Shown: positions 5,695 to 61,410 of the stretch, piece after piece
Layout: each line of letters starts with the position of its first letter
How positions within the stretch are numbered: position 1 is the first letter of the stretch
From: an uncultured Thiotrichales bacterium
GTDB taxonomy: Bacteria; Pseudomonadota; Gammaproteobacteria; CAIRSR01
Direction of reading: 5' to 3'
DNA length: 64,000 nucleotides
Assembly (NCBI GenBank): GCA_903881315.1
Contig: CAIRSR010000117.1
Coordinates: forward strand, 1 to 64,000
Made by a program: the position numbers and the translations under genes
The notes under the pieces: generated by a model
What the model saw: the letters and a program-made list of their open reading frames with translations, nothing else
The model's database searches: none
What the model was told of the DNA's origin: nothing

Positions 5695-5801
5695 AAGCTG
5701 CGGAGTGTAATAGTCTTTGCCAATCAGTGTCAAGACAACGCCCGCGCCTACTCGCTTGGTATCACCGTCACCAAGTTCCCCGTCACAGCCATGGATTTTA
5801 C

Positions 5802-5830
5802 TGTACCCAATAAGGATTGAGGGATATAAT
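5802..5830 (+). promoter_or_regulatory. Possible promoter in the yceD/Sel1 divergent gap
   Basis: A perfect TATAAT lies at 5825-5830, 17 bases after a weak TGTACC at 5802-5807, about 138 bases before the Sel1 lipoprotein start. The same AT-rich spot read on the minus strand offers TTGGTT-17-TTATAT pointing at yceD. The remaining 270 bases between the two starts show nothing else clear. Confidence 0.35.
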
Positions 5831-5967
5831 TTACCGTACAATACAGAACCAACTTAGGAACTTGCGAACCCGCTCACACACCAAGCCAACAATCCACCAA
5901 ACTTCCCACGCGCCTTCCACTGCGCGACGCGATCATCCATCCCCCAATTGACAATGAGTCTGCGGTC

Positions 5968-6609
5968 ATGAAAAACATCTCCCTACGTCTCATTGCTACC
6001 CTCTGGCTGGCGCTGCTCCTTGCCTCCTGCACCGATAATTCGGTGAATGATCTCCGCGCCAAGGCGGAGCTTGGGGATGCAAAGGCGCAATTTGCGCTTG
6101 GGCAACGGTATGACAATGGCCTAGAGATACCACAAGATTTCTCAGAAGCGGCAAAATGGTATCGTAAGGCGGCTGATGCGGGTCATGTAATGAGACAATA
6201 TCACCTAGGTGTTTGCTATCCTGAGGGAAAAGGCGTGAAACAGGATTTTAATGAGGCGATGACCTGGATCCGTAAAGCCGCCGAACAGGGTGTTGGCGAG
6301 GCGCAATACAACCTAGGCTGGATGTGCAGCAACGGCGAGGGCACCCAGCGGGATGACACAGAGGCCGCCAAGTGGTACCTCAAAGCCGCAGAACGGAACC
6401 ACGCTAACGCTGAGGCCGTTCTCGGCGAGATATACTACAAAGGCAAAGGCGTGAAGCAGGATCTTGAGACCGCTTACATGTGGTGGTCGATTGTTGCCGC
6501 CAAGGGTGTCGTCGTAAGAAGGCTTGCGCAACTTGAAAAGATCATGACGCCTGAGCAAGTTCTTGCGGCCAAGAAGCGCGCCGCAGAATGGCTCCCGACA
6601 GAACAGTGA
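5968..6609 (+). CDS. Sel1-repeat lipoprotein
   Basis: The 213-residue protein begins with a lipoprotein signal: basic MKNISLRL, a hydrophobic core, then LLASC with the lipidated cysteine near residue 22. The mature part holds about four Sel1-like repeats of 36 residues, each with the pattern A(Q/E)xxLGxxYxxGxGVxxDxxEAxxWxxKAA, covering roughly residues 35-190. Such solenoids usually mediate protein-protein contacts in the periplasm, and many have no assigned function. It stands alone between yceD (divergent) and the pyruvate carboxylase genes. I cannot name a partner. Confidence 0.85.
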   Translation: MKNISLRLIATLWLALLLASCTDNSVNDLRAKAELGDAKAQFALGQRYDNGLEIPQDFSEAAKWYRKAADAGHVMRQYHLGVCYPEGKGVKQDFNEAMTWIRKAAEQGVGEAQYNLGWMCSNGEGTQRDDTEAAKWYLKAAERNHANAEAVLGEIYYKGKGVKQDLETAYMWWSIVAAKGVVVRRLAQLEKIMTPEQVLAAKKRAAEWLPTEQ

Positions 6610-45836: not shown

Positions 45837-46268
45837 TCACACGCGCCCTTTGAGCTTTTCGCGCACATTCTGGAGCGTGCGGAGCTGCGCAACCGCTTCA
45901 AGCAATTCGGCGTGTACACGAGCATAGTCGACGTTCTCCTTCCGATCCTTAAGCAGCTGCATGGCGCGTTCTCGCGCCTCTATCGCTTTTGCCTCGTCAA
46001 TGTCCTTGGCGCGCAACGCAGTATCCGCCAGCACGGTCACCACATGGGGCTGCACCTCTACAACCCCGCCTGAGACATAGAAATATTCCTCTTCCCCCTC
46101 CGGAGTGCGTACCCGTACCTCACCCGGCACGAGCTTACTGATGAGCGGCGTGTGGCGGGGCAAGATACCCAACCCACCACCCGCCGCCGGAGCAAACACC
46201 ATCGTTGCAACGCCAGAGTAGATCGCAGCCTCAGCGCTCACAATATCCACATGGATGGTCATCGCCAT
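45837..46268 (-). CDS. atpC: ATP synthase epsilon subunit
   Basis: The epsilon subunit of F1 connects gamma to the c-ring and inhibits ATP hydrolysis. The 143-residue protein starts with MTIHVDIVSAEAAIYSG, has LGILPRHTPLISKLVPGEVRV and ends in the two-helix domain with conserved basic residues. It is the last gene of the operon, 27 bases after atpD, before a strong terminator hairpin. Confidence 0.97.
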   Translation of the reverse strand: MAMTIHVDIVSAEAAIYSGVATMVFAPAAGGGLGILPRHTPLISKLVPGEVRVRTPEGEEEYFYVSGGVVEVQPHVVTVLADTALRAKDIDEAKAIEARERAMQLLKDRKENVDYARVHAELLEAVAQLRTLQNVREKLKGRV

Positions 46269-46295: not shown

Positions 46296-47765
<1,470 letters not shown>

Positions 47766-47770
47766 TCACA

Positions 47771-48637
47771 TCACACCGCCGCAGCACCAGCCACGATCTC
47801 CGACAACTCTTGGGTGACAGCCGCCTGGCGAGCCTTGTTATAGGCAAGCTGAAGCTCATCAATGATAGTCGCCGCATTATCAGAGGCCGCTTTCATGGCC
47901 ACCATACGCGACGCCATCTCAGACGCCATATTCTCGACCACGCCTTGGTAGACCAAGGACTCAACGAAACGAACCAGAAGTTCATCCAAAACCTCTTTCG
48001 CATCCGGCTCGTACAAGTAATCCCAGTGACCTTTGCTAGCACCCAAACCGGCCTCAGGAGGCAGGGGCAGGATCTGCTCTATTGTCGGGGACTGCGTCAT
48101 GGTATTCACGAATCGATTGTAAACAAGATACAACCTATCGATCTCACCCGCTTTGTAAGCGTCCAACATTACCTTGACGACACCAATGAGATCCACAATA
48201 TGTGGGGTATCGCCGAGATGAGTAATATTGGAAACGATCTTCGCCCCAACCCTTCTCAGAAACACACTACCCTTGCTGCCAATGGAGCAGAACCGAACAC
48301 CGACCCCTTCGCGATCCCGTTCGCGCATCTTAGCCGTTAAGGCGCGCAACAGATTGCCGTTGAGACCACCACACAACCCACGATCAGAGGTGATAACAAC
48401 AAACCCCACATTCTTTGCCTCGGGGCGCGTTACCAGATAGGGATGACGATACTCGGGATGGGCGTGGGCCAAATGCCCAATCACCCGCCTCATTCGCTCC
48501 GCATAAGGACGGGCAGCCACCATCCGATCCTGGAATCGGCGCATCTTACTCGCGGCCACCATCTGCATGGCCTTGGTAATCTTGCGGGTGCTCTTGATAC
48601 TCTTGATCTTGTCACGAATCTCTTTGCCGCCAGCCAT
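47771..48637 (-). CDS. atpG: ATP synthase gamma subunit
   Basis: Gamma is the rotary shaft of F1. The 288-residue protein shows [36 protein letters not shown] at the N-terminus, [19 protein letters not shown] near residue 76, and the C-terminal coiled-coil stretch [41 protein letters not shown]. It lies between atpA (98-base gap) and atpD (95-base gap). Confidence 0.98.
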
Positions 48638-48735: not shown

Positions 48736-50280
48736 TTACCAAGTATGGGTGGCCTTGAAGGCAGTGAGAGCAGCACGCAGACCACTCTCCACCTCATCGG
48801 TATATTCCGGTTTCTCGGTGATGCGCGCAAGGAGATCCGCATGATCATGGCGCATGTAAGCCAGCAGCGCATGCTCAAAATCAACTACCTTCTTCACCGG
48901 AACATCGTCAAGAAAACCCAGATTTACAGAGAACAAAGAAACCGACATCTCCGCCAACGACAACGGACGATACTGAAGCTGCTTCATCAACTCGGTAATG
49001 CGCTGCCCACGCTCCAACTGCCTACGGGTTGCATCGTCCAGATCGGAGGCAAACTGCGCAAAGGCAGCAAGTTCACGATACTGCGCCAAGTCAAGACGCA
49101 CACCACCACCAAGCTTCTTGATGATCTTCGTCTGCGCAGCACCACCCACCCGCGACACCGAAAGACCGGCGTTGATGGCAGGACGGATACCGGCATTAAA
49201 CAGATCGGTCTCTAGGAAGATCTGCCCATCGGTGATGGAGATCACGTTCGTTGGTACGAAGGCCGACACGTCGCCCGCTTGGGTCTCAATGATCGGCAAC
49301 GCCGTCAGCGAACCAGTACGCCCCTTGACCCGCCCACCCGTTGCCTTCTCGACGTACTCTTCGTTGACGCGCGCCGCACGCTCCAGCAACCGCGAATGTA
49401 GGTAGAACACATCGCCAGGATAGGCCTCACGACCCGGGGGACGACGCAGCAACAGCGACACCTGACGATACGCCCATGCCTGCTTGGTGAGATCGTCATA
49501 GACAATCAGCACATCCTCACCCTGGTCACGGAAATACTCACCCATCGTGCAACCAGAATAGGGGGCAATGTACTGTAGCGCAGCAGATTCCGACGCAGGC
49601 GCAGCCACCACGATGGTGTACTCCATCGCGCCATGCTCTTCGAGCTTACGCACCACGTTGGCAATACTGGAAGCCTTCTGACCGATGGCTACATAGATAC
49701 ACAAAACGCCAGTACCACGCTGGTTGATAATGGTGTCGATGGCAACCGCCGTCTTGCCGGTCTGGCGATCCCCGATGATCAACTCACGCTGACCACGCCC
49801 GATGGGAACCATCGAATCAATCGCCTTAAGTCCGGTCTGCAAGGGCTGGGTCACCGATTTGCGAGTGATGACCCCGGGGGCCACCTTCTCAATGGGCGAA
49901 GTACCATCCGCCGCAATGGTGCCCTTACCATCGATTGGGAATCCCAAGGAATTCACGACCCGCCCAAGCATCGCACGACCTACGGGCACCTCCAGAATGC
50001 GGCCAGTGCAACGCACCGAATCACCCTCGGTGATGTGCTTGTATTCCCCCATAACCACCGCACCTACGGAATTGCGCTCAAGATTGAGCGCCATACCAAA
50101 GGTGTTGTTTGGAAACTCCAGCATCTCGCCCGACATGACATCGGACAACCCGTGGATGCGGGCAATACCATCGGTAAGGCTCACCACCTTCCCTTCGGTG
50201 CGTGCCTCTACCTTCAGGCCAAACGACTGGATCCGGCTTTGTATTAGTGAGCTTATTTCACTAGGATTGAGTTGTAACAT
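48736..50280 (-). CDS. atpA: ATP synthase alpha subunit
   Basis: Alpha is the non-catalytic nucleotide-binding subunit of F1. The 514-residue protein has [17 protein letters not shown] at the start, the P-loop [17 protein letters not shown] near residue 170, the [48 protein letters not shown] block near residues 263-305, and the VSRVGGAAQ motif near residue 370. I prefer the ATG at 50280 (GAGGA site 10 bases upstream) to a TTG eight codons earlier that overlaps atpH. Confidence 0.98.
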
Positions 50281-50300
50281 GTTCAGGAGTTCCTCGATTC

Positions 50301-50849
50301 TCAATGACGCAGTTCAGTGGCCATCTGTGCCAGACCAGCCCGTACCGAGCCGTCGATCACCACATCACCGACACGTACCACAGCACCGCCGATGAGATCT
50401 GGATCCACATGGAACGTAATATTGACGGCCCGCCTAAATCGTCTTTCCAACGCCCGCACAAGGGTCTGCTGATCCTGCGCGTCATCCAATGGGTAAGCGG
50501 AGATAATTTCCACGTCCACCCAATTCTCGGCTTCTGCCTTTAACCTATCGAACAGGACGATGACCTCCGGCAACACCGCAAGACGATCATTCTCCGCCAG
50601 CACACGAACAAAATTACGCGCAGTCTCTGTAAGGCTTGCCCCCGCAACATCAAGAACCAGATCAGCAAGCAAGCCACGACTGACGAGCGGATTCCTTATG
50701 AATTCGTCCACCGATGCGTCTGTCACGATAGCCGACATCGTGGCAAGCATCTCCGACCAAGACTTCAGATCGTTCTCTTGCCGCGCCTGCGAGAACACAG
50801 CACTCGCATAGGGCCTGGCAACAGTAATATCCGCCGACATACTCGACAT
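50301..50849 (-). CDS. atpH: ATP synthase delta subunit
   Basis: Delta forms part of the stator, joining the b subunit to the top of F1. The 182-residue protein has the [16 protein letters not shown]-terminal helix and the C-terminal [28 protein letters not shown] motif. An AGGGGG site precedes the ATG at 50849; a second ATG three codons on is also possible. It lies 12 bases after atpF. Confidence 0.97.
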
Positions 50850-50861
50850 ACCGATGGCCCC

Positions 50862-51332
50862 CTAGATAGTAGCTGCAATCCGGTCAAGCAACTGTTTGTG
50901 CCTCTCGACATCTATCTCTGCCCGCAGAATCTGCGCCGCTCCCGCTATGGCAAGTGTGGCCACCCGATTACGTAGATCCTCCTTGGCGCGATGTACCTCC
51001 TTCCCAATCTCCGTCTTGGCGGCGACCAGCAATCGCTCTGCTTCTCCACGAGCCTCCTCCTGGGCCTCCTCCACGACAACCCGCGCACGAGACTGCGCCT
51101 GATCAATCAACACGGCAGCCGCATCGCGTGCCTCTTTAATTATCTCTACCGCCCTCTTCTTTGCAAGCTCTCGTTCCTGATGGGCACGCTCCGCAGCCTC
51201 TAACCCATCAGCAATACGCTTCTTGCGATCCTCCAAAACCTGAGTCAGCGGCCCCCACAAAAACTTCGAGATGAAGGCAATGAGTACCAAGAAGGTGGCC
51301 ATTTGGCCGAGCAGCGTGGCAGTGACGTTCAC
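50862..51332 (-). CDS. atpF: ATP synthase b subunit
   Basis: The b subunit is the membrane-anchored stator stalk. The 156-residue protein starts with MNVTATLLGQMATFLVLIAFISKFLWGPLTQVLEDRKKRIADGLEAAERA, the single anchor helix and the start of a long charged coiled coil. The start is a GTG at 51332, eight bases after GGAG. It should follow atpE directly, but atpE is missing upstream. Confidence 0.97.
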   Translation of the reverse strand: MNVTATLLGQMATFLVLIAFISKFLWGPLTQVLEDRKKRIADGLEAAERAHQERELAKKRAVEIIKEARDAAAVLIDQAQSRARVVVEEAQEEARGEAERLLVAAKTEIGKEVHRAKEDLRNRVATLAIAGAAQILRAEIDVERHKQLLDRIAATI

Positions 51333-51517
51333 GAAAGAACTCCAAGTCTAAGGATGCGCTCTATCACGCATCAACCGTTGGTATTAACGCCCCAACACCA
51401 GGAATACGAACCAAAACGCACCCGATCCGCAGACACAAGTGCACTATCACAACCAAACAACAACGAAGAACCCTAAGACTCCACGGCAGGTATCACCCAC
51501 TAAAGACACCCACCACT
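51333..51517. other. atpB-atpF gap where atpE is expected
   Basis: This 185-base stretch occupies the place where other bacterial operons of this type carry atpE (c subunit, about 240-270 bases). No frame in it encodes a hydrophobic hairpin protein or a conserved c-subunit motif such as GAxxGxGxxxG or the RQPE loop. It contains a small inverted repeat (GATGCG-8-CGCATC, about 51352-51371) and is otherwise featureless. The c subunit is either encoded elsewhere or lost from this sequence. Confidence 0.8.
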
Positions 51518-52396
<879 letters not shown>

Positions 52397-52411: not shown

Positions 52412-52837
52412 TCAGCCCTCAGTTTCTGAACCCTTCCCCAACTGCCGACGATCAGGCAGCTTAAAAAGATACCCCATATGAGCAGCGGCTAACCCCATGA
52501 TCACGAGGACGGGTCGGAAGTGATAATAACCCATTCCCACCCCAAGGCCCAGCGCAACCAGACCAAACCGCTCCAGGGCACCAACGAAAAGGTACAAATA
52601 GAGACGCGCATCGCCGATGCTACTCTGGGTCGTATCCATGACCGCAGCTTTTCTTAGTCGCAACCCTAACAAAAAGGTCACCAGTACCGCCAACGAGCCA
52701 CCGTAGCCAGCGGAGAGCACATCCTGGACATTCCCGCGAACCACGTAGACCGCACACGCCACCACCACGACAATGAGGGCCTGCCAGATCAGAATACGAC
52801 GAACCCCGCTGTTCAGAACCCTGGTCAGGTGACTCAT
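52412..52837 (-). CDS. atpI: ATP synthase protein I
   Basis: AtpI is a small membrane protein at the head of atp operons, thought to help c-ring assembly or ion uptake. The 141-residue protein has four predicted membrane segments (about residues 18-36, 44-62, 80-100 and 105-125) and a basic tail. The ATG at 52837 gives MSHLTRVLNSGVRR; the frame extends further but without a better ribosome site. It lies 48 bases before atpB. Confidence 0.9.
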   Translation of the reverse strand: MSHLTRVLNSGVRRILIWQALIVVVVACAVYVVRGNVQDVLSAGYGGSLAVLVTFLLGLRLRKAAVMDTTQSSIGDARLYLYLFVGALERFGLVALGLGVGMGYYHFRPVLVIMGLAAAHMGYLFKLPDRRQLGKGSETEG

Positions 52838-52934
52838 TGTATGGCACACGGTGCGTTGAGAAAACCCTGCGAGGTGTACAGTACCCATCGCACGTCAACC
52901 AAAAGCGTTGCACTACGAGCTACAACAGGCCACC

Positions 52935-55464: not shown

Positions 55465-55507
55465 ATGAACCAACCGTCACAAGAAACTGGGGTTCTAGAA
55501 AACCCAT
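55274..55507 (-). pseudogene. Possible remnant of a sensory (Cache-type) protein
   Basis: A 77-codon minus-strand frame contains YYGVVGFVVSAVPILGDADGNLGGYEVLVISVDPG, which resembles the end of a Cache sensor domain of chemoreceptors (V.SAVPI.D.DG...GYEV). It lacks any start region or membrane helix and overlaps the first 43 bases of the helicase gene. The resemblance is by eye and the frame may be chance. Confidence 0.25.
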
Positions 55508-58500
55508 TGGAGACTAACCGACTTCGGCAACTCTATGAAAAGCTGCGCGAGCAGCTCTTGGATCTGACAAGACGCAATCCGCTACTCAACTATGGGTTAA
55601 AACCACGCTCCAAGCGTTTTCTGCAACTGGTTGACTGCGCTATAGAAAGCGTTTACGAGCGACTGATCGTCGATGTGGCGTCGCTCCCTATCGTCGCGCT
55701 CCCTGAACCAGACAGCGTACCGCCTGATGAACGCAGCCCGGAATTTGTGGCAGCCCTTGCATGGGCGAAGACCACCGATATTGAATACCTAAGCACCATC
55801 GAAGCATTGGAGGCATCAGATGATGCCAGTGAAACATCGTTTGAGAACACAGATCGCGCACTACGAGATCGGGTGCGCATCAAGCGTAACCTTCCACCAC
55901 GAGCTTCACGCAAAGAGATCGATAGGGCTGAACATGCCCGTTCGTTGGGTATCGACCCAAACCTTTCTCTCTGCGAAGAACCGCGTGAACAAGAGCAGCT
56001 CCAGACGCTGAAATATCCAGACGAACTGGTGTCCGTCATGGAGAAGATCGCGGACGATGCCCGCCTGGCGGAGCAAGAAACGGGGCTATCTACCCTGCAT
56101 CTCGCCTTTGGATTTTTGGAGTGGTACGAGAGCGAAAATTCCGACAAGAAGTCGCTCGCACCACTCTTGCTGTTGCCCGTTCGGATAGAGCGTTCCACGG
56201 CACACGGCAAACCCGCATACTCGATAGCAGCAAGTGAAAGTGGTGCAGAGGAAAATCTGAGCCTGCAAAAACGACTAGACAGAGATTTTTCGCGCAAGCT
56301 ACCTGACTTTGCAACAGACGGAGACAACGCGCCCACACCCATCGAAGACTACTTTAAGGGGGTAACGGATGCCATTGATGGTTTGAAGCGCTGGCGGATG
56401 CACCGCTGGCTCGTACTCGGCCACTTCTCGTTTGGTCGGTTTGCTATGTATGCCGATCTGGATGCACAGAATTGGGGAGAGCTGTCAGCGAATCCCCTGG
56501 TTGGGGCACTGCTACGGGGAACCGACCAGAAAGAGGATGCTGCACCCTTGCCCGGCATCCCCGATGATTACCAGATCGATGATCCAAAAATCGAGTCCAT
56601 TGCTCCGCTATTGATCCAAGATGCAGACGCCTCCCAACACAGTGCGCTGGTTGATGTCATGCAGGGTGAGAACTTGGTCATACAGGGCCCGCCCGGCACC
56701 GGCAAGAGTCAGACCATCACGAACATCATCGCCAATGCGCTGGCCAAAGGAAAGACTGTCCTGTTTCTTGCCGAAAAGCAGGCGGCGCTAGAGGTTGTGA
56801 AGCGCCGCCTTGATAACTCAGGGCTTGGTGAGTTTTGCTTGGAACTGCACTCGGACAAAGTCTCTCCAAAGAGCATTATCACAAGCCTAAGAGCACGGAA
56901 TGAGCGAGGATCTGGACAAGATCTACCGGTGGCAAATCAGCGCGGCGACACAGACTGGCTTTCGGCGCGCAATGCTCTAAACACCTACGTCAAGGCCCTT
57001 AACGAGCCTCGTCCCGACGGCGACTCAGCGTTCAAACTTCTCTGGAGCGCCATTTATGGACGTATGGTTTCCCCGGAACTTGCCAGCGAATTCAAGGGGG
57101 TGGAGCTTCCACTCCCTCTTCTGCAAGACCCAGGGCACATACGAACCCTCCGTGCGCAACTGGAAGACTTTAAGCATATTGCGCAAACGTACACAAAGGA
57201 CTGCGGTCATCATCCGGCACAGTCGCCCTGGAAGCAGCTACCCCTTGGGGAAATTCATCGGTACAAAATATCCGCACTGCAAGACGCGATTAACGCACTC
57301 AGGGCGTCACTGGAAGAGGGCCACGCACTCGTTGAGAACAACTCGAGTTACGGCATCACCAGCGAGGAAGACCTCTCGGCAGTAACAGACTTAAGTGCAA
57401 CACTCGGCGAGCCTCCGACACCTGAGGCCGTTGATCAAATCCCTCCCACCGACCTCCCAAGCCTCGAACGGGCGGTACGACTGCGAGCAGAACTAGGCAA
57501 CCTTGAGCATGAACTTAGCAGATTTCCTGCTCTGCAAGGATTGACCGTAGATCGGTTATCCATTGCCTCCTCTCTGCTAGAGACATCGGTCGGAGCGACA
57601 CTAGCCGCTAGTCACCCAGCCGCTGCCCTTGCGACTGTCGAAGAAATCGTCGCTGCTGTCCAGGATGTGGAACCGGCACTAACTAGGCTTGGCGTCACCT
57701 TCACTGCACCAGCGTCACAGGCAACAACAGCCGCCGTCTTGGTCAAGTCACTGTTGGCGATACCTCCGCAGTATCTGCGCTGGATGGTCGAGAACCCCGC
57801 CATCCGCAGAGCAGCTACCATAAACAAAACCACCCTCCGCACAGTGATGAACCACTGGCAAAAGCTGCTTAACGACGAAAACACCTGGGGCCAAAGAGTG
57901 ACGGGTTATCAGGGCAAGGTGCGTCCGTCACCCGCACAACTTAACACGTTTGCTGCAACCCTGAGAAAGACTGGGTTCGGCAAAATCTTCGCAACCCTGT
58001 CGGGCAGCCTCCATACCGCAAGAAATTACTGCACACAACTCGGCATTGAGCAATCCCCCGCAGAACTTGAGGCCCTCAGCGCCCATGTGCAGAACCTGCA
58101 AAGATTTGAGTCAGACATCGAGATGGCAGTAGCCCTCGGTACGGCGTGGAACGCACTTGCCACACCCTCCAAGGGAATTGACCAGGCGGCCACCGAGTGG
58201 AACCAAGCAGACATGGAGTGGAACGAGGCAGTCAAGGCGTGGGAAAGACTCTTTTCGACCGCAAGCACCCTTTCTCAGCAGGGTGACTTGCTCGTAGGAC
58301 GTATACTGAAACTCCCACTGATCGAAATACTCTGCGAATCATCGACACAGCTAAACCGTTTGGCTGGTCTTGACGCAACATCAAAGGCGCTCTTAAACGA
58401 GCAGCCGCTTGAAAAATGCCTCTCCGAGATGCGGCAGTGGATCGCCCTTTTGCAACAGTTTCTTTCTATCGATGCGGAAAAAAGGCTTTCACCAATTGGC

Positions 58501-61410
58501 GCATCGATTAAAGACATTTCAGAGATTCATCGACTAAGGCTACGGCTAGAAGAGACGCGCTCTAATCTCTCGCATTGTGCCTCCGAATCACGCGCTATCG
58601 CTTTGCAGCTTTTTGAGAATAACTTCTCGGCGAAAGAAATCACCACAGCCATTGCTTGGTGCGGTGCTGTGCGTGGCTCCAGGGTACCTGCGTTGATGAA
58701 AGACCACCTTCTTTCCGCAACGCTAACAACTAGCCACCAAGATTTGCGTGAGGTAAAAACACACTGGAACAATATCACTAAAACCCGCCCACCCTTAGTG
58801 AAGGCATTGACACCCTTTGGCACAGAGCAAATCGCAGCCCTTCCAACCAATGAACTGCTGGCGCTACTGCGCGAACTGCCCGACAACGGTGGGGGACTCG
58901 CTGAGTTCCTTAAGCTGCGCTCCCTGCGCAGTACCCTCGAACAAGAGGGTATGAAACCGTTCCTAGATGCGATCGACACGCACCTAATCGAAGCGCATCG
59001 CATCATGGGGATATTCACGATGCTGGTCACGACCAGACGTGCGGGACAAGCACGACAAGGAGAGGGCTTGGCTGACAGTCCTGATGGAACAACGTTGGAT
59101 CGACGCCGACAAACCTTCGCGGATCGCGATCGAGCGAAAATCAAAACCGATCGCGAGATAGTGCGAGCGCACTTGTTAAAGCGCACCCCACCCACCGGAT
59201 CGCAATCTGGGCCTCGCAATACCTGGACGAACATGAGACTCCTTCACAACGAGTTCACTAAGTCCAAACGATTTACTCCGGTTCGACAACTAGTTGCCAG
59301 GGCCGGAGCCGCCATACAGACGCTAACACCCTGTTTTATGATGTCACCACTCTCTCTTGCCAAGTTCGTTGCGCCGAGAAGCCTTCACTTTGATCTGCTG
59401 GTAATTGACGAGGCGTCACAGATGAAACCAGAAGACGCCCTTGGGGGAATGTTCCGCGCCACCCAGCTCGTAGTCGTTGGCGATACGAAGCAACTGCCAC
59501 CTACCGATTTCTTCAGTCGTAGCGGTGGCGAGGCAAACACCTCTAGCGATGAGGATGATGACGACATCGACGCAGAGTCGATCTTGGAGGCCTGCGAGCG
59601 CACGTTCGGAAAGCGGCGAATACTCAAATGGCACTACCGCAGTCGGTGCGAAAGTCTGATCGCCTTTTCTAACCGTGAGTTCTACGAAAACAAACTCATC
59701 ACCTTCCCCATGGCAAAACCAGGTGCCTTCTCGGTCGAGCATGTGCGGGTCAATGGAACCTACCGCACCCGCCAAAACCCCGACGAAGCCGCCGCAATTG
59801 CACGGGCAGCAATCGCGTTCATGCAGCATTTCGCCAATGAGCCTGAAGAAAGCTTGCCAACCTTAGGGATCGTTGCCATCAACACCGAGCAGCGCGATTT
59901 CATCAATGACGAACTAGCCAGGATGGGGAGCGGCGATAAACTTGTGGAACAGTATCGTCAGAAGGCGGAAGCGAAGAGTGAACCGCTGTTCATCAAGAAT
60001 CTAGAGAATGTCCAGGGGGACGAGCGCGATCACATCTTCATATCCATGACCTATGGTTGTAAGCACGGCGAGCCAGCCATGGCGCAACGCTTCGGCCCCA
60101 TCAATGGCAAACAAGGCCACCGCAGGCTAAACGTCTTGTTTACGCGCGCACGGGCTCGGATTGGCCTCTTCACCTCCTTTGGCTCGGAGGATGTACGACC
60201 CGCTGACGGCAGTTCAGAAGGCGTGACAGTATTAAAGCGCTACCTGGAGTACGCTGAAACGCGGGGACAGGCCTTCGGACGCCAAACTGGTCGCGAAGCA
60301 GATAGTGCTTTCGAGATCGCGGTCGCCAAACAACTGCGTACGAAGGGGTACCAGATCGATCTCCAAATCGGTGTTTCTGGCTATCGAATCGATCTGGGTA
60401 TCCGGCACCCGGATCGTCCCGAGCACTTTTTGGCAGGTGTCGAGTGCGATGGTGCGACTTACCACTCAAGCAAGAGTGCGCGGGACAGAGATCGACTGCG
60501 CGAGGAGATCCTGAAAAGCCTTGGCTGGCACATCGTCCGTGTGTGGTCTACTGATTGGTTCGACAACCCTGCGTTGGAGACCGAGAAGCTCGCACGAAAA
60601 TTGGAGGAACTACGCACCAAACCAACACCTCGTTCTAACTCCTATCCACCGTTGCATGGGTTGGTTCTCAATTGGGAAACTGAAAGTGCCCGTGACACGG
60701 ATACAACCACCTCAGCGCCTTCGAATGACACTGAGGTCAAACGTAAGGCTACCAATAACCGTGCGGAGAATAAACCAGGGACTCCCCAGTCACCTCCTTT
60801 GGTTCAGCCCCCACGAACTGCAGAAACACCGAAATCCAAACCGAAGGGCGTAGACATCCCATTGATAACCGCGCCCAGCGTTGTATCACCACTGTCGTCT
60901 GTCAGTCATGCAACCTACTCGATCGCCAATCCTACAGACATCGGACGTCCTGAACGCGATCGCTTCTTCGATCCCGACTATAAAGCCATACTCAAACGGA
61001 TGATCGCGCATGTAGTCAGGATAGAAGGCCCCATCTTTGAAAACCTGCTCGTCGATCGTATTGCGCGGGCGCATGGACTTATGCGTTCTGGGAATAAGAT
61101 CAGGGATCGGGTTATCAGCTTGCTTCGGGATGTGGATCGGGTGGACGAAAACGGACATAAAGTGATCTGGCCACAAGGAAAGAAGCCTGGAATTGTCCAT
61201 CCCTATCGGAAGGATCCGTCGGGAACGCGAAAGCACGACGACGTGCCTGCCGAGGAACTCGCGGCGATTGCCCTCCCGTTCGTTCAGCTACGGTTAGGCG
61301 ACGAAGAAATTTTGAGAAAGATGGCTGACGAGTTCTTACTCGGTCGGCTGCACAAACTCACCAGGCAACGATTTACCAAAGCGATTCAGATCGCCAAAGG
61401 TTCAGGATAG
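55465..61410 (+). CDS. Giant DUF4011-SF1 helicase-Vsr-like nuclease-DUF3320 protein
   Basis: This single protein has 1981 residues. Domains: DUF4011 near residues 17-300 (LLDLTRRNPLLNYG at the start); helicase Walker A QGPPGTGKSQT near 407-415; a long, partly coiled insert of about 900 residues; Walker B LLVIDEASQM near 1312-1320 and VVGDTKQLPPT near 1337; second RecA-like domain to about 1570 (WHYRSRC, NVLFTRARARIGLF); a nuclease domain of the Vsr/MTES_1575 type near 1615-1712 (YRIDLGIRH, AGVECDGATYHSS, IVRVWSTDWF); a low-complexity linker; DUF3320 near 1828-1981. Domain sets of this kind are linked to antiphage defence; I recall a single-gene system called Hhe with this architecture. It stands alone with a GAGAGAG site before its ATG. 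Confidence 0.88.
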   Translation: MNQPSQETGVLENPLETNRLRQLYEKLREQLLDLTRRNPLLNYGLKPRSKRFLQLVDCAIESVYERLIVDVASLPIVALPEPDSVPPDERSPEFVAALAWAKTTDIEYLSTIEALEASDDASETSFENTDRALRDRVRIKRNLPPRASRKEIDRAEHARSLGIDPNLSLCEEPREQEQLQTLKYPDELVSVMEKIADDARLAEQETGLSTLHLAFGFLEWYESENSDKKSLAPLLLLPVRIERSTAHGKPAYSIAASESGAEENLSLQKRLDRDFSRKLPDFATDGDNAPTPIEDYFKGVTDAIDGLKRWRMHRWLVLGHFSFGRFAMYADLDAQNWGELSANPLVGALLRGTDQKEDAAPLPGIPDDYQIDDPKIESIAPLLIQDADASQHSALVDVMQGENLVIQGPPGTGKSQTITNIIANALAKGKTVLFLAEKQAALEVVKRRLDNSGLGEFCLELHSDKVSPKSIITSLRARNERGSGQDLPVANQRGDTDWLSARNALNTYVKALNEPRPDGDSAFKLLWSAIYGRMVSPELASEFKGVELPLPLLQDPGHIRTLRAQLEDFKHIAQTYTKDCGHHPAQSPWKQLPLGEIHRYKISALQDAINALRASLEEGHALVENNSSYGITSEEDLSAVTDLSATLGEPPTPEAVDQIPPTDLPSLERAVRLRAELGNLEHELSRFPALQGLTVDRLSIASSLLETSVGATLAASHPAAALATVEEIVAAVQDVEPALTRLGVTFTAPASQATTAAVLVKSLLAIPPQYLRWMVENPAIRRAATINKTTLRTVMNHWQKLLNDENTWGQRVTGYQGKVRPSPAQLNTFAATLRKTGFGKIFATLSGSLHTARNYCTQLGIEQSPAELEALSAHVQNLQRFESDIEMAVALGTAWNALATPSKGIDQAATEWNQADMEWNEAVKAWERLFSTASTLSQQGDLLVGRILKLPLIEILCESSTQLNRLAGLDATSKALLNEQPLEKCLSEMRQWIALLQQFLSIDAEKRLSPIGASIKDISEIHRLRLRLEETRSNLSHCASESRAIALQLFENNFSAKEITTAIAWCGAVRGSRVPALMKDHLLSATLTTSHQDLREVKTHWNNITKTRPPLVKALTPFGTEQIAALPTNELLALLRELPDNGGGLAEFLKLRSLRSTLEQEGMKPFLDAIDTHLIEAHRIMGIFTMLVTTRRAGQARQGEGLADSPDGTTLDRRRQTFADRDRAKIKTDREIVRAHLLKRTPPTGSQSGPRNTWTNMRLLHNEFTKSKRFTPVRQLVARAGAAIQTLTPCFMMSPLSLAKFVAPRSLHFDLLVIDEASQMKPEDALGGMFRATQLVVVGDTKQLPPTDFFSRSGGEANTSSDEDDDDIDAESILEACERTFGKRRILKWHYRSRCESLIAFSNREFYENKLITFPMAKPGAFSVEHVRVNGTYRTRQNPDEAAAIARAAIAFMQHFANEPEESLPTLGIVAINTEQRDFINDELARMGSGDKLVEQYRQKAEAKSEPLFIKNLENVQGDERDHIFISMTYGCKHGEPAMAQRFGPINGKQGHRRLNVLFTRARARIGLFTSFGSEDVRPADGSSEGVTVLKRYLEYAETRGQAFGRQTGREADSAFEIAVAKQLRTKGYQIDLQIGVSGYRIDLGIRHPDRPEHFLAGVECDGATYHSSKSARDRDRLREEILKSLGWHIVRVWSTDWFDNPALETEKLARKLEELRTKPTPRSNSYPPLHGLVLNWETESARDTDTTTSAPSNDTEVKRKATNNRAENKPGTPQSPPLVQPPRTAETPKSKPKGVDIPLITAPSVVSPLSSVSHATYSIANPTDIGRPERDRFFDPDYKAILKRMIAHVVRIEGPIFENLLVDRIARAHGLMRSGNKIRDRVISLLRDVDRVDENGHKVIWPQGKKPGIVHPYRKDPSGTRKHDDVPAEELAAIALPFVQLRLGDEEILRKMADEFLLGRLHKLTRQRFTKAIQIAKGSG

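Follow-up and report, generated by a model that had tools for sequence, protein, structure and literature searches.

The DNA analysed here (the window) is a stretch of 64,000 nucleotides from the genome of an uncultured Thiotrichales bacterium. It carries an ATP synthase operon, which runs on the minus strand in the order atpI-B-F-H-A-G-D-C (Table 1). The first-pass annotation had described this operon as intact in every gene and devoid of atpE, the gene for the c subunit. Gene order and integrity were borne out by Pfam matches for I, a, b, delta, alpha, gamma and beta, and for epsilon by inspection of the sequence. Exactly 185 nt (51333-51517) separate the stop of atpB (51518, minus strand) from the GTG start of atpF (51332). 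The claim that this gap codes for no c subunit also held, with coordinates, reading frames and homology search in agreement. No c subunit was found in any reading frame of the spacer, and a lax tblastn search of the spacers of all four genomes of the family revealed no c remnant (best E ~0.03 in a tiny database, and no c motif). A c-subunit match was likewise absent from the rest of the 64-kb window. Subunit a retains its essential arginine, as stated earlier (within a 17-residue segment, not shown). Near the operon, a single ORF of 1981 aa (window positions 55465-61410) encodes what appears by eye to be a large helicase-like protein.

Table 1. The atp operon of the window and the F-type c-like genes on other contigs of the same genome
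Feature	Location	Strand	Remarks
atpI	52412..52888	minus	PF03899, E 9.4e-6, barely above cut-off
atpB, subunit a	51518..52363	minus	PF00119, E 1.2e-53; family-conserved
atpB-atpF spacer, usual gammaproteobacterial atpE site	51333..51517	minus	no c subunit encoded
atpF, subunit b	50862..51332	minus	PF00430, E 7.6e-29
atpH, subunit delta	50301..50849	minus	PF00213, E 2.5e-48
atpA, subunit alpha	48736..50304	minus	PF00006, E 4.3e-83; ATG at 50280 is the probable true start
atpG, subunit gamma	47771..48637	minus	PF00231, E 1e-103
atpD, subunit beta	46296..47750	minus	PF00006, E 7.5e-74; probable true start ATG near 47675
atpC, subunit epsilon	45837..46268	minus	ORF and sequence judged by eye, not Pfam
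c gene, class alpha	C18:6558-6857		Glu kept
c gene, class delta, C18 copy	C18:7328-7648		just downstream of alpha
c genes, class beta (two) and class gamma (two)	C171		Glu kept
c gene, class delta, C28 copy	C28:590-937 (L142)		diverged
c gene, class delta, C65 copy	C65:2609-2959 (L143)		diverged

The family lacks atpE at the atpB-atpF junction

The family was sampled with four genomes from two genera, all of them fragmented drafts: the window genome (G000) and G001 represent one genus, and G002 and G003 the other. In all four, atpB is followed directly by atpF with no c gene between them. The spacers measure 185 nt in G000 and 135, 141 and 258 nt in G001, G002 and G003, respectively, and all that the family conserves in them is the start of atpF and a ribosome-binding GGAG. 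A c gene lies within ~210 bp of atpB in 33 of 33 genomes from other families of the class, as read by eye from the coordinates of PF00137 and PF00119 matches; the adjacency count covered 37 genomes. Of the 80 nearest c-subunit loci in GTDB genomes, 79 likewise show the operon order; the remaining one belongs to a member of the same family. These counts support the earlier statement that atpE normally sits between atpB and atpF in Gammaproteobacteria. The canonical atpIBEFHAGDC operon (for example in Guyparkeria, Halothiobacillus and Thiotrichaceae; L058-L136) otherwise has the same gene order as the window; it holds atpE between atpB and atpF, whereas the window's family has lost atpE from the operon and the gene has multiplied at other sites.

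An assembly error had been among the explanations offered by the first-pass annotation. The junction without atpE is common to four genomes of two genera, and the comparison with close relatives yielded no intact operon, all three relatives lacking atpE at this place. Since 4/4 family genomes lack the gene at this junction and 33/33 outsiders have it next to atpB, its absence there is not an assembly error. Elsewhere in the operon, the atpH-atpA junction of G003 is ~550 bases long (L146:9760-10315) and contains a small ORF that resembles, by eye, a retropepsin-like aspartyl protease.

F-type c genes are located outside the operon

We searched the window genome with PF00137 and obtained seven matches, six of the F type (two on contig C18 and four on C171) and one of the V/A type (C123). 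A divergent relative, used as the query, uncovered another two c-like genes (C28 and C65), which brings the F-type c-like genes of this genome to eight, spread over four contigs other than that of the window. That atpE had moved elsewhere, one of the possibilities raised at first, is thus what the search of the rest of the genome found, with six genes above the PF00137 cut-off and two diverged ones. We refer to the c genes that keep the ion-binding Glu as alpha, beta and gamma, and to those in which it is replaced (the GN copies) as delta. Alpha is the one c copy common to all four family genomes. In G001, alpha and delta lie on C216 and beta and gamma on C104; in G003, alpha and delta lie on C27; in G002, alpha stands alone on C44, ~23 kb from the atp operon. 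The alpha and delta genes are accordingly paired in three genomes, and G000 and G001 show synteny around the pair, with two upstream genes and one downstream oxidoreductase gene in common. No delta was found in G002 (99% complete), which makes delta dispensable within the family and an accessory rather than a core part. These positions also carry a caution for annotation: a scheme based on operons can mark an ATP synthase as incomplete although its rotor gene has only changed place.

Two of these loci have further features. A 6-kb stretch of contig C171 (L038:5262-11319) carries the four c genes as two facing tandem pairs, with few other convincing genes; it also holds tandem repeats of 67 bases (5796-5996) and 46 bases (6068-6159). 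In G002, the ectopic c gene is followed immediately downstream by a HEARO RNA (RF02033, 127.7 bits; L045:8055-8278, minus strand), in the place where the relatives have delta, and delta may have been deleted from that genome, or displaced, by a mobile element. A mobile-element link was considered and rejected, as the HEARO RNA occurs at the G002 copy only and no long repeats surround the G001 copies.

The first-pass annotation had further suggested that a second operon supplies the c subunit. This did not hold up: G000 has one subunit a only, with no second F- or N-type subunit a in the genome. A V/A-type operon (subunits I, proteolipid, F, E and A; L037, G000 C123, 1-6950) exists beside the F-type enzyme, and V/A-type proteolipids are present in the family mates too. 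Achromatium, which has V-type ATPases (PMC4530308), was considered as the source on that account and received no confirmation: no 16S gene was found, and Ca. A. palustre has 38% GC against 56% here. As a c supplier, this proteolipid was rejected, being divergent and belonging to its own C123 operon. The N-ATPase, an extra ATPase from a second F-type operon (PMC4154653) with its own c subunit encoded next to its own subunit a, was rejected for G000 because it is absent from that genome. Similar loci, second F-type loci with their own subunit a and an adjacent c gene of ~80 aa, were observed in G002 (L044, C297) and G003 (L048, C110), and among the four family genomes they are restricted to the second genus.

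The delta copies have lost the ion-binding carboxylate

The alpha protein is ~78-86% identical to the operon-borne c subunits of many Gammaproteobacteria and shares with them the ESFPFI motif, including the ion-binding Glu. Ser31, Trp35, Gln49, Glu68 and Ser69 are present in 10/10 alpha, beta and gamma genes. The five delta genes, from three genomes, all have Phe31, Cys or Ser at 35, Asp59, Gly68 and Asn69 and have lost Gln49. The ten copies with Glu and the five without it are therefore separated, with no exceptions, by S31F, W35C/S, Q49x, N/Q/K59D, E68G and S69N. The helix-2 carboxylate is present as Glu68 in every alpha, beta and gamma copy, and its replacement by Gly68 in 5/5 GN copies makes delta a c-like protein and not an ion-carrying c subunit. 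With the residue offset set by the RQP loop, positions 68 and 31 correspond to Asp61 and Ala24 of E. coli c. Positions 24 and 61 of that protein face each other, as 1l6t (Asp24/Asn61) illustrates. Judged from the aligned residues, the ion site of delta is rebuilt and has not simply lost one residue: a helix-1 Phe lies opposite a helix-2 Gly, and Phe31 would fill the cavity over Gly68.

Na+-type c subunits carry a helix-1 Gln together with a Ser or Thr after the carboxylate (PMC7793690). Alpha has Ser69, but Trp35 stands at the position of the helix-1 Gln; it departs in this from the Na+-specific pattern, and coupling to protons rather than Na+ is likelier.

The curated PF00137 cut-off of 24 bits was passed by alpha (44.8 bits), beta (54.9), gamma (39.4) and the delta copies of C18 (28.5) and G001 (27.7). 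It was not reached by the C28 copy (14.4), the C65 copy (no match) or the GN copy of G003 (23.9), and the c homology of these three comes from their 44-71% identity to other copies. In a ten-sequence alignment (A1), G30, G34 and G36 and the block FPF..LAF..WF.FANPF are kept. AlphaFold models the G001 delta, with modest confidence (pLDDT 68), as a hairpin; the structures that fit it best are c subunits, and 1l6t is among the matches. Searched as a DNA pattern, the motif F-[VIM]-G-N-F-P-F has true matches in this family only, among 369 Gammaproteobacteria sampled for the exact motif; matches in G199 and G338 were discarded as chance reads within unrelated sequence. The C28 and C65 copies also bear a C-terminal tail of ~20 aa with Cys residues, which none of the glutamate-bearing copies has.

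In the tree, the delta copies form one clade with support 99/98. A single relocation of atpE is likely but unproven, because not all c copies of the family come together in the tree and gamma branches outside the operon copies; forcing the family copies together was not rejected (AU p 0.15).

A c-ring probably supplied in trans and the possible role of delta

The c-ring sets the number of ions spent per ATP and is normally built of identical subunits from one operon gene. For the window's family we propose, with a probability of about 0.8, that the c-ring is supplied in trans from relocated atpE and that delta is an ion-blind rotor subunit, most likely a regulatory or ratio-setting one. The gene would have departed from the atp operon in the family ancestor, and the F-type c-ring would since have been assembled in trans from the relocated genes, with alpha (C18 in the window genome) as the housekeeping c subunit. 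The c gene would then have multiplied, which would account for the beta and gamma isoforms with intact sites seen in the window genome's genus. One duplicate would have become the ion-blind delta before the two genera split, its gene standing just downstream of alpha and its ion-site residues changing together (carboxylate to Gly, neighbouring Ser to Asn, facing helix-1 residue to Phe). Gene content makes it very likely that alpha supplies c to the window's ATP synthase in trans, given that subunit a keeps its arginine, the operon has no c gene and alpha is common to the four genomes. Delta probably enters the same ring as alpha, since its hairpin and helix-1 glycines are kept. By precedent, a site without a carboxylate would there stop or slow rotation or lower the number of ions per turn, so that delta may lock or tune ion transport, and expression outside the operon would allow the cell to vary the delta dose. 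The broader notion, that dispersed ion-carrying and ion-blind c genes yield variable rings, is conceivable at somewhat below even odds; if it is true, gene expression would decide the ion-to-ATP ratio or the locking, which the ring itself would no longer fix.

Parts of this arrangement have precedents. The accessible part of PMC4154653 describes Epsilonproteobacteria in which the atp genes are split between 0A and 0C and between 0C and 0B and the c gene, as in the window's family, lies apart from the atp operon, as well as ectopic duplications of single atp genes in isolated species; in contrast to the window's family, it reports for Epsilonproteobacteria no multi-copy ectopic c family and no c subunit without a carboxylate. 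In the literature that could be searched, we found no dispersed family of several c genes that includes a conserved ion-blind copy, and no usable account of c paralogs without a carboxylate or of E. coli D61G. A precedent thus exists for atpE outside its operon and another for a rotor subunit that lacks a site, while the combination looks new.

One role for delta, possible though tentative, is to lower the ion-to-ATP ratio of the ring, its blank site being tolerated and skipped as with c1 of Acetobacterium woodii. The F/V-hybrid rotor of that bacterium (4bem) combines c1 with c2/c3, c1 being a fused V-type double hairpin encoded in the operon. It resembles the proposed rotor in being natural and in having a c-type chain whose hairpins outnumber its ion sites and whose gene stands beside normal c genes. 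Delta differs from c1 as a single F-type hairpin that is encoded outside the operon and has no ion site. With its 10 Na+ sites (PMC7793690), the A. woodii ring shows that a ring with a missing site can work in nature, and a change of ratio is therefore possible if subunit a tolerates the blank. A lowered ratio is also favoured by the strong conservation of the whole hairpin and the re-made site, by the pairing of the alpha and delta genes and by the c1 chain 4bem_J being one of the relatives of this c family with a solved structure. Against it, we identified no adaptation in subunit a, G002 gets by without delta, and a single E56Q in the c10 ring of Bacillus PS3 abolishes ATP synthesis (PMC8809890).

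This last result indicates instead that delta, once in a ring, would lock or silence it. Delta could then be an inhibitor that, when produced, is built into rings and locks rotation there; for some of the enzymes, for example those of one membrane or growth phase, this would save ATP or close a proton leak. We regard this role as possible though equally tentative. Engineered loss of a single site halts coupled rotation (PMC8809890), separate genes permit separate control, and delta is dispensable in G002, all of which fit an inhibitor; the adjacent alpha and delta genes may be co-transcribed, however, which speaks against a strictly conditional role. PS3 E56Q and E. coli A24D/D61N (1l6t) have lost the carboxylate in one subunit, as delta has, and the facing positions 24 and 61 of the latter are the pair changed together in delta. 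Both mutants are laboratory constructs, whereas the change in delta is natural, old and conserved. Standing beside a normal c gene, a conserved natural F-type c paralog without an ion site offers a ready test of whether blank steps can exist in a rotor and of whether cells exploit them to tune or lock the ATP synthase.

A place for delta outside the F-type ring, in another membrane complex or an assembly of its own, is a slightly more doubtful proposal. It was considered because the cytoplasmic-loop Gln that in other c rings points towards the central stalk is missing from 5/5 delta copies, and contact with F1 may be gone. Yet delta retains the glycines of helix 1 and most of helix 2, which would fit selection for packing against alpha, and one oxidoreductase gene is the only conserved neighbour that could be a partner.

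Selection on delta and quality of the contigs

That the delta copies are pseudogenes on their way out is very improbable. Between G000 and G001, the C18 copy shows pN 0.09 against pS 0.66 (one-sided p 9e-23), and alpha shows 0.09 against 0.62; the C18 delta is under purifying selection as strong as that on alpha. The C28/C65 pair is less constrained (0.14 against 0.40, p 5e-7; omega ~0.25), and one of these two could be decaying, being diverged and below the Pfam cut-off. Decay is nevertheless opposed by pN/pS far below 1 in all tested pairs, by open frames and by diagnostic changes that persist at 47% identity between genera, and it is contradicted for the C18, C216 and C27 copies.

Least credible is an artefact in which atpE was dropped in assembly or binning and the extra c genes are contamination: the window genome is fragmented (221 contigs, 93.9% complete) and one GN copy sits on a 3.4 kb contig, but the same junction recurs in both genera, it is interior to the 82.6 kb contig C117, the alpha-delta locus is syntenic in the independent assembly G001, and contamination is 0.88%. 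The composition of C18, C171 and C28 matches that of the window, and the short C65 falls inside the window's own spread.
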